Assembly (NCBI RefSeq): GCF_000620045.1
Contig: NZ_JHVH01000019.1
Location: forward strand, 1 to 64,000
Reading direction: 5' to 3'
DNA length: 64,000 nucleotides
DNA from: Halomonas halodenitrificans DSM 735
GTDB taxonomy: Bacteria; Pseudomonadota; Gammaproteobacteria; Pseudomonadales; Halomonadaceae
The position numbers and the translations under genes were made by a program. The notes below the pieces were generated by a model, which searched no databases, was not told where the DNA came from, and saw only the letters and a list, made by a program, of their open reading frames with translations. How positions within the stretch are numbered: position 1 is the first letter of the stretch; each line of letters opens with the position of its first letter. Below are positions 26,054 through 28,582 of this stretch, piece by piece.

Positions 26054-26869
26054 TTAAACGAGTTCCGCCAGCGATTCAACCACGCCATCCGGGCCACTGT
26101 CGCGCACCGGTTCGCCATGGTTGTAGCCGTAGGGGACCGCCAGGGTGCGGAATCCCGCCGCCTTGCCCGCGGCGATATCATGACGCGAGTCACCCACCAT
26201 CAGGCAGGCCGCCGGAGAAATGGCGAAATGCGAGGCAACATGTAAAAGCGGTGCCGGGTGGGGCTTCTTCTCGGCCAGGCTGTCGCCCCCCAGGCAGAGC
26301 GCGAAATCGTCGGCCAGGCCCAGCCCCTCCAGCAGCGGCGCGATGAAGGCCTCGGGCTTGTTGGTCACCAGTGCCAGGGGCAGGCCGCGCCCCCGCAGTC
26401 CATCCAGGCATTCGCGCACCCCGGGGTAGCGCCGGGTATGGATCCCGGGCGCACGGGCATAGTGCTCCAGAAAGGCCTGATGGGCGCGATCCAGCAGGCC
26501 CTCTGGCAAGGATCCATCTGGCGAAGGGCCAGCAGGCGAGGCGCCGGGGACTGATAGTAGAGGGGGTCCTATGCCAGGGACGGCATCGGTAGCGCCCAGG
26601 GAGGGGTTCACAGCGCCCCCTCGGATATCAGTCGCCGGATCAGCCTCGCCGACTCCCTCGTTTATGTGAGCAATAAACCGCAACACCCGCTCCATCAGTA
26701 CCAGCGAGCCATTGCCCACCCAGTCGCGCACCCGGGCCTCGCCGACGGCGGCCAGGCCCAGCTCGGCCAGGGCGGCATCCACGGCGATGGCCAGGTCGGG
26801 CACCGAATCGATCAGGGTACCGTCGAGGTCGAAGGCCACCAGTTCGACGCCTTCCAGAATGGGATGCAT
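26054..26869 (-). CDS. gph: Phosphoglycolate phosphatase, HAD family, with a repeat-derived insert
   Basis: 271 residues. HAD motif I is DLDGTLIDS with catalytic Asp14 and Asp16; motif II is the VTNK block; motif III/IV is KKPHPAP then MVGDSRHDI. It removes phosphate from 2-phosphoglycolate formed during DNA repair. It is longer than E. coli Gph (252) because of a Gly/Pro/Ser-rich stretch at about residues 76-122 in the cap region. At least residues 83-104 of this stretch are encoded by a 63-bp palindromic element. The start ATG is at 26869. In pseudomonads rpe, gph and trpE are neighbours; here ndh and a GIY-YIG gene lie between rpe and gph. Confidence 0.9.
   Translation of the reverse strand: MHPILEGVELVAFDLDGTLIDSVPDLAIAVDAALAELGLAAVGEARVRDWVGNGSLVLMERVLRFIAHINEGVGEADPATDIRGGAVNPSLGATDAVPGIGPPLLSVPGASPAGPSPDGSLPEGLLDRAHQAFLEHYARAPGIHTRRYPGVRECLDGLRGRGLPLALVTNKPEAFIAPLLEGLGLADDFALCLGGDSLAEKKPHPAPLLHVASHFAISPAACLMVGDSRHDIAAGKAAGFRTLAVPYGYNHGEPVRDSGPDGVVESLAELV
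26560..26622. repeat. Palindromic repeat element inserted in frame in gph
   Basis: A 63-bp segment is bounded by the inverted pair GAGGGGG (26560-26566) and CCCCCTC (26616-26622). An inner hairpin has arms ATGCC (26571-26575) and GGCAT (26582-26586). From memory, sequences of this type are dispersed in Halomonas genomes; I cannot confirm copy number here. Its length is a multiple of three and it reads open through gph. A direct repeat CCAGCAGGC lies nearby at 26491-26499 and 26530-26538. Confidence 0.6.
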
Positions 26870-26977: not shown

Positions 26978-28276
26978 ATGAGCATACCGAGAATCGTGGT
27001 GGTCGGCGGCGGCGCCGGTGGCCTGGAGCTGGTGACCCGCCTGGGTCGGCGCCTGGGCCGGCGTGGCCGAGCCGAGATCGTGCTGGTCGACCACAGCCCG
27101 ACCCACATCTGGAAGCCGCTGCTCCACGAGGTCGCCACCGGCGCCCTCGACTCGGGTCTCGACGAGATCGCCTATGCCAGCCATGCCCGCGGCAATGGCT
27201 ACCGCTTCCAGCGCGGCACCCTGCGTGGGCTCGACCGGCAGCGACGCCGACTGCATCTCGCCGCGATGCTCGACGACGACGGCGAGGAAATCCTGCCGGC
27301 TCGCGAGCTGGCCTACGACCGGCTGGTGCTGTCGCTGGGCAGCGTCAGCAACGACTTTGCCACCCCTGGTGTGGCCGAATACTGTCACTTTATCGATAGC
27401 CCCGGGCAGGCCGAGGCCTTCCGCCGCGACATGCTCGACACCTTCCTGCGCTACAGTGCCGCCGCACAGCACGAGTCCCCGCGGCTACGGGTAGGCATCG
27501 TGGGGGGCGGCGCCACCGGGGTGGAACTCGCCGCCCAGCTCTACGACGCCCTGCTGATGCTGCATAGCTACGGTGTCACCGAACTGGACCACCATCAGCT
27601 CGATATCCACCTCATCGAGGCCGCCGATGATGTGCTGCCGGCCCTTCCCGAGCGCGTTCGCCAGGCGGTCCGCGATGAGCTCCAGGGCCTGGGCGTGCAG
27701 GTCCTCACCGCCACGCGGGTCACCCAGGTCGAGGCCGACGCCATCCATACTGCCGATGGCCAGCGCATCGCCACCGACCTGGCCGTCTGGGCGGCGGGTA
27801 TCAAGGCACCCGACATCCTCACCGAGCTGGGCCTGACCCTGGCCAAGGGCCAGCGTATCGTCGTGGACGACACCCTGCGCAGCGTCGATGACCCGGATAT
27901 CTTCGCCTTCGGCGACTGCGCCAGCTGCCCCCAGGCAGACGGCAGCAGCGTGCCGCCCCGTGCCCAGGCCGCTCACCAGCAGGCCCAGCGGCTTTACCGG
28001 AATCTGCGTGCCCAGATCGACGGCAAGCCGCTCAAGCCCTTCGTGTACCGCGACCGCGGCTCGCTGATCTCGCTGGCGCATTTCGAGGCGATCGGCACCC
28101 TGATGCGCGGCGCCTCGGCACGGCGCCTGTTCGTCGAGGGCCATCTGGCCAAGTTCTTCTACGTCTCGCTCTACCGGCTGCACCAGAGGGCGGTTCACGG
28201 CAGCCTCAAGACCGGGATCATCGTCCTGGTCGATGGGTTGAACCGGTTCATTCGGCCTCGCCTCAAGCTACACTGA
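26978..28276 (+). CDS. ndh: Type II NADH:quinone oxidoreductase
   Basis: 432 residues. The FAD dinucleotide-binding motif GGGAGG is at residues 10-15, and a second, NADH-binding one, [13 protein letters not shown], is near residue 169. FAFGDCASC near residue 310 binds the flavin, and a C-terminal amphipathic region attaches the enzyme to the membrane. It feeds electrons from NADH to quinone without pumping protons. A GAGGAG site precedes the ATG at 26978. The 3' end overlaps the GIY-YIG gene on the other strand by 9 bp. It is divergent from gph across about 110 bp. Confidence 0.94.
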
Positions 28277-28582
28277 GGCATCTTCGGTCCGCTGATGCAG
28301 CCAGGCCCGCTTGCGGGCGGCCGTGAGGCGCTTGATCTCGGCCTCAAGGCGCAGAGCCGTGCCGTGGTCGCCCACCGGTTCCTGATGGCGCAGCGTCAAG
28401 GGCCCCTTGCCACGCAGCGCCTTGGCGCCGCGCCCCGCCCGATGCTGGGCCAGGCGCCGGTCGACGTCGGTGGTAATGCCGGTGTAGAGCGCTCCGCCGG
28501 CCGTCTCCAGCATATAGAGGTACCACACCCTCGCCTGGCCCGTCGGCTCGAGCGCCTCCGAAAGGGCGCGACGCTCGCTCAA
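28268..28582 (-). CDS. GIY-YIG nuclease-superfamily protein (UPF0213/YhbQ-like)
   Basis: 104 residues. The GIY-YIG core appears as YLYMLET (residues 21-27) and YTGIT (33-37), followed by the conserved Arg of DRRLAQH and a Glu in LRLEAEIK near residue 80. Single-domain members such as YhbQ may act on nucleic acids, but the cellular role is unknown. It starts 4 bp after rpe and is probably co-transcribed with it. Confidence 0.85.

Follow-up and report, generated by a model that had tools for sequence, protein, structure and literature searches.

The phosphoglycolate phosphatase gene (gph) of Halomonas halodenitrificans DSM 735 contains an in-frame palindromic segment which, judging from the sequences compared here, is quite likely the core of a dispersed, non-autonomous palindromic repeat of approximately 116 bp that entered gph in the Halomonas group and was kept as coding sequence. 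It lies in the window analysed (the whole stretch of 64,000 nucleotides, positions 1 to 64,000 of contig NZ_JHVH01000019.1), for which a first-pass annotation had described a 63-bp segment with GAGGGGG/CCCCCTC ends lying in frame in gph; this is present at 26560–26622 on the gph (minus) strand and supplies about 21 residues. The supposed outer arms are real but form the inner pair within a larger 116-bp palindrome (26535–26650), and the Pro/Gly/Ser-rich insert around the core, put at about 45 residues, amounts to 50 when compared with 221 amino acids, the commonest Gph length in relatives. The gene is identified by two NCBIfam models (NF009695, 255.3 bits with a cut-off of 225; TIGR01449, 218.4 bits with a cut-off of 180) and by HAD motif residues that are invariant across 51 aligned Gph proteins. 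The features are as follows.

26054–26869, minus strand: gph, phosphoglycolate phosphatase, 271 aa, stop codon included (NCBIfam models, HAD motif residues)
26535–26650, minus strand: entire palindromic element, 116 bp, codons 74–112 (family matches; ends GGCGAGGC/GCCTCGCC)
26560–26622, minus strand: 63-nt core, residues 83–104 (about 21) (model R1, 94.8 bits, E 8.9e-19)
26616–26622 and 26560–26566, minus strand: inner arms of the core, GAGGGGG/CCCCCTC
26595–26606, minus strand: apical hairpin H1, hexaloop CTCCCT at 26598–26603 (AGGGAG on the plus strand)
26571–26586, minus strand: apical hairpin H2, hexaloop GTCCCT at 26576–26581 (AGGGAC on the plus strand)
26522–26644, minus strand: Gph codons 76–116, 41 residues, predicted disordered (pLDDT under 50)

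Model R1 was built from 54 other copies of the element, the window copy being left out. Folded alone, the window copy gives z -2.1 as RNA (equalled by 4 of 200 shuffles) and z -1.2 as DNA (26 of 200), which is just modestly better than shuffled sequence; the case against chance therefore rests on the repeat family, that is, on its copies and their covariation.

Copies of the repeat and their location

In the 3.46-Mb genome a 141-bp query returned 28 match rows (E≤1.2e-4) and R1 returned 27 (E≤1e-3). Three pairs of the query's rows each represent the two halves of a single longer copy, which brings the genome total to approximately 25. The earlier remark that only one copy is in view is thus true of the 64-kb window (next-best R1 match, E 0.36) but not of the genome as a whole. 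The suggestion that similar elements are dispersed in Halomonas proved correct: of 90 genomes in the genus, 84 have matches, one of them with at least 84 match rows in a peptide search. At the level of the order, R1 matches are present in 27 of the 145 genomes searched, including 24 from other families; in a class-wide draw they are present in 5 of 143 genomes (E≤1e-4, this genome among them). Copies outside the family have long, nearly perfect arms that are mutually dissimilar in sequence, while the loops are retained. We found no account of the Halomonas repeat among the literature matches listed, subscription papers being mostly beyond the reach of the search.

Gene context was assigned using a codon-model gene caller built for this work. 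Among 20 rows from this genome, 18 lie between co-directional or convergent genes, one lies between divergent genes and one (gph) is inside a gene, while none of 67 rows from other Halomonas genomes is inside a gene; many copies sit shortly 3' of a stop codon. A further 126 rows, a set which contains duplicates and was partly chosen by likeness to the gph insert, include 12 within genes, every one of them gph. Since these samples cover part of each genome's copies, in-gene copies other than gph are better described as not found than as excluded.

Several arrangements were noted in passing. A long form with about 80 bp extra, rich in inverted repeats, in the second hairpin occurs at five loci (L012, L013, L016, L018, L019) and in frame in gph of three species (L033, L042, L052). 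A locus from another family (L255, genome G132) holds at least six elements in tandem, spaced approximately 227 bp apart (at 371, 598, 827, 1054, 1281 and 1507). Common intergenic sites near an 834-bp gene hold elements in both orientations (L103, L104, L110, L132, L134, L135, L144, L154), as if these sites had been refilled across Halomonas genomes.

The element has the traits of a MITE, in that its copies are dispersed, have terminal inverted repeats and lack coding capacity of their own, and we propose that the copies would be mobilised in trans by a separate enzyme. Empty sites compared for target duplication were not clean, and one of them suggested a 181-bp insertion, which exceeds the element in length.

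The insert in Gph of relatives

We compared Gph from 80 genomes and the window (n=81), an alignment the first-pass annotation had proposed. The full insert is present in 16 (window included), nine in orientation A and seven in orientation B, of which three are the long form; seven have 8–22 extra residues at the insert site and 58 have none. The window copy is in orientation A, in which the gph sense strand is the strand carrying the TCC loops. Among the short stretches, L032 and L048 retain plain element letters, L030, L034 and L046 have short stretches only, and in L036 and L045 the origin of the extra residues is ambiguous. The lengths of these genes modulo three carry no information, the genes having been cut from start to stop by frame, and hence the evidence that the insert is in frame is that all 23 longer proteins continue to the conserved C-terminus. 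Of 74 intergenic copies, 66 keep open the frame that gph reads in orientation A (established from the window and L023) and 56 keep open the one that it reads in orientation B (established from L028 and L038), while each orientation also has one frame that is open in none of the 74; where checked, gph reads the most often open frame of the family in either orientation.

An AlphaFold2 model (51 sequences, mean pLDDT 83) addresses the question, raised in the first-pass annotation, of whether the insert is a surface loop: residues 76–116 have pLDDT under 50 and this predicted disordered stretch falls between cap helices 55–70 and 125–139. The insert, read in either orientation, is probably a floppy surface loop. 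Outside the insert gph evolves under constraint, mean identity among 13 alleles being 90% at codon positions 1+2 and 68% at fourfold sites. The 63-nt core is 96% identical among the 13 alleles, across orientations too, which indicates that it is homogenised, or constrained as nucleic acid, and not chiefly as protein.

The A and B alleles could have come from one copy that was turned round, or from separate insertions at one hot spot, which we consider possible but rather unlikely. Of the 15 distinct gph arm alleles, 11 carry the motif ACTGAT and one more departs from it by a single compensated pair, both orientations being represented; among the non-gph arms listed (128 of 157 rows parsed) it was not found. 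These gph-specific letters, common to both orientations in 12 of 15 arm alleles, argue against separate insertions and point to one ancestral copy, turned round. Compensating pair changes are seen in gph arms between the window lineage and L023, and between L024 and L023. On the other side, orientation must have changed at least five times on the TrpE tree, and at least five times also on a gph tree that leaves out the insert and has many weakly supported branches; there are also close pairs of opposite orientation (L024/L035, L023/L028). The arms differ from the common type in L026/L029 and L035, and close relatives with A and B alleles are unlike in the approximately 20 nt flanking the element. 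The differing flanks imply that allele exchange between species, or a second insertion, contributed, and together with the other arms in L026/L029 and L035 they make a single insertion less certain. At intergenic sites, among locus pairs with both flanks alike, the orientation is opposite in 36 and shared in 153 (many pairs are redundant). Six opposite pairs read closely appear to be separate copies or fragments whose immediate flanks do not match; this would favour separate insertions in gph also, and turning in place at intergenic sites was rejected.

For gph itself, we favour the capture of a mobile copy: the gene would tolerate the insert because the loop is harmless, the insert may have been turned round and passed from one species to another by allele exchange, and other gph genes may have lost it by in-frame deletion.

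At four other Halomonas gph loci (L273, L275, L278, L284) the gph frame extends upstream, free of stops, into a second protein-like sequence which we take to resemble a GIY-YIG protein, and it is possible that gph is fused to, or overlaps, a GIY-YIG-like gene there. In the window a similar GIY-YIG-like ORF (28268–28582, minus strand) is separate from gph.

Folded structure and the strand apparently under selection

The alignment of 74 non-redundant copies describes a three-way junction, with an outer stem and two apical hairpins. Covariation was first detected without a supplied structure and pairs were then counted: 95.5% of cells are paired compared to 87.9% in shuffled alignments, 24 pairs have changed on both sides and none of 500 shuffles scores as high, although the structure used for this count was derived from the same 74 copies and related rows inflate the figure. 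Both loops read NTCCNT (ANGGAN on the opposite strand), with T, C, C and T each kept in 73–74 of the 74 copies and the N positions variable; outside the family, the H2 loops fit this pattern in 58 of 63 copies that were located without requiring the motif.

If both strands mutate alike, imperfect A.C and G.T pairs should be equally frequent. On the TCC strand the A.C:G.T ratio outside the family is 73:10 (63 copies with distinct arms, of 101), or 37:4 by copy (22 ties) and 14:1 by genome (4 ties); the distant copies were found via a TCC-strand model, any bias of which would favour G.T. In the 74 Halomonas copies it is 46:25, or 23:9 by copy (42 ties). As A.C on the TCC strand corresponds to G.U on the ANGGAN strand, the folded form under selection appears to be the ANGGAN strand, as RNA or as single-stranded DNA, and copies of the family may spread or act through this folded single strand.

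A rival reading is that the repeat is a functional RNA, in which the transcribed ANGGAN strand presents two hairpins to CsrA/RsmA, the copies serve as CsrA sponges or CsrA-binding parts of mRNAs, and the gph copy is a by-product; we hold this tentatively, as somewhat improbable. ANGGAN in a hexaloop is the CsrA/RsmE consensus, and the element carries such hexaloops, with GGA, on stable hairpins. The near-invariance of GGA and the first A while the N positions vary, the excess of G-U wobbles in the arms on the ANGGAN strand and the finding of csrA in this genome all agree with it. Families with AYGGAY loops on two hairpins have previously been proposed as CsrA-binding RNAs (PMC4333381, in the text available). 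The wobble asymmetry could also stem from a single-stranded DNA stage, and no Rfam match of CsrB/Rsm type was found at the element loci examined. Among copies between co-directional genes, the ANGGAN strand is sense in 11 and the TCC strand in three in this genome, but a general bias toward the ANGGAN strand was rejected since the counts are 22:31 in other Halomonas and 13:14 outside the family. Co-occurrence with csrA is uninformative, as almost every genome of the order has the gene (all 27 that carry the element and 109 of the 118 that lack it; Fisher p 0.21). Given unbiased gene orientation and near-universal csrA, we treat CsrA binding as hypothetical.

More speculatively, and with no greater likelihood, this widespread gammaproteobacterial repeat class might be a mobile structured RNA whose three-way junction combines fast-changing arms with two almost unchanging ANGGAN hairpins of CsrA/RsmA type. 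It would function from its own strand, either by acting on the Csr system or as a hitch-hiker on it, and one Halomonas copy would have become a protein loop readable in either orientation. With its strand-specific sign of selection on a folded single strand, the family offers a way to test whether a repeat that occurs in many genera is selfish DNA or has a function as RNA.

Comparison with known systems

Mobilisation of the element as a REP by a RAYT (Y1) transposase seems very unlikely. There is a GTAG at the hairpin base (CGGTAGCGCC), and REPs of the GTAG/CGTC type are likewise intergenic, lie close 3' of genes and occasionally occur in frame within ORFs (PMC3733652, in the part of the paper available). 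In contrast to REPs, which are single hairpins of 20–40 bp, the Halomonas element is a 116-bp three-way junction with two hairpins, and none of 30 PF01797 loci carries the core when searched by sequence pattern up to about 1.5 kb at most on either side; moreover, PF01797 is present in only 24 of 38 genomes searched. One genome of the same order (G096) has 49 rows matching Y1 transposases (PF01797), many at contig ends.

Ordinary family variation, in which a unique Pro/Gly-rich loop merely resembles a repeat, is the outcome that the first-pass annotation had named as overturning its reading. It agrees with the single copy in the 64-kb window but is practically negligible, being ruled out by the approximately 25 copies in the genome and by the repeats present in 84 of 90 Halomonas genomes, along with the covariation and the 58 of 81 Gph proteins lacking the insert.

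TwoAYGGAY (RF01731) and other proposed or known CsrA-binding RNAs share paired hairpins with ANGGAN-type loops (PMC4333381, in the text available), but have no Rfam match at element loci, and the Halomonas element differs from them in being a dispersed palindromic repeat. The nearest kin found by sequence is the repeat class that includes Rfam Ysr224 (RF02770), as a sub-threshold match. Ysr224 has two TCC-loop hairpins, arranged in the same sequence as in the element, and its matches fall on the element: two rows in 18 loci of this genome (E 1.6 and 2.3, best 21.8 bits) and nine rows in 8 of 19 loci from other genera (E 5.9e-6 to 0.43, best 40.8 bits). Across these 18 own and 19 other-genera loci, searched in E-value mode, nothing at the element exceeded the Rfam threshold, Ysr224 reaching 21–41 bits compared to a gathering score of 70. 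That RNA is annotated on the TCC strand, whereas the wobble asymmetry of the element favours the opposite strand.

The first-pass annotation likened the segment to Rickettsia palindromic elements. The likeness stands in that an in-frame palindrome is translated within a functional gene, to which it adds a tolerated segment (PMC10969869 and PMC6649704, as far as their available text goes); it concerns described behaviour, not sequence, and gives no support to membership. Rickettsia palindromic elements insert in many unrelated genes (PMC10969869, available text), whereas the in-gene rows found here, among part of each genome's copies, are only gph (1 of 87 and 12 of 126) and, unlike in Rickettsia, the insert occurs in both orientations at one site. 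In-frame palindromes beyond Rickettsia are a little-studied source of new protein segments, and gph in 16 genomes, with the insert filled, reversed or lengthened beside relatives that lost it or never had it, makes tolerance, turning and loss testable on one enzyme. The event is of a known kind, an in-frame palindromic repeat as in Rickettsia palindromic elements and REPs, in a new setting of one gene, both orientations and many species.
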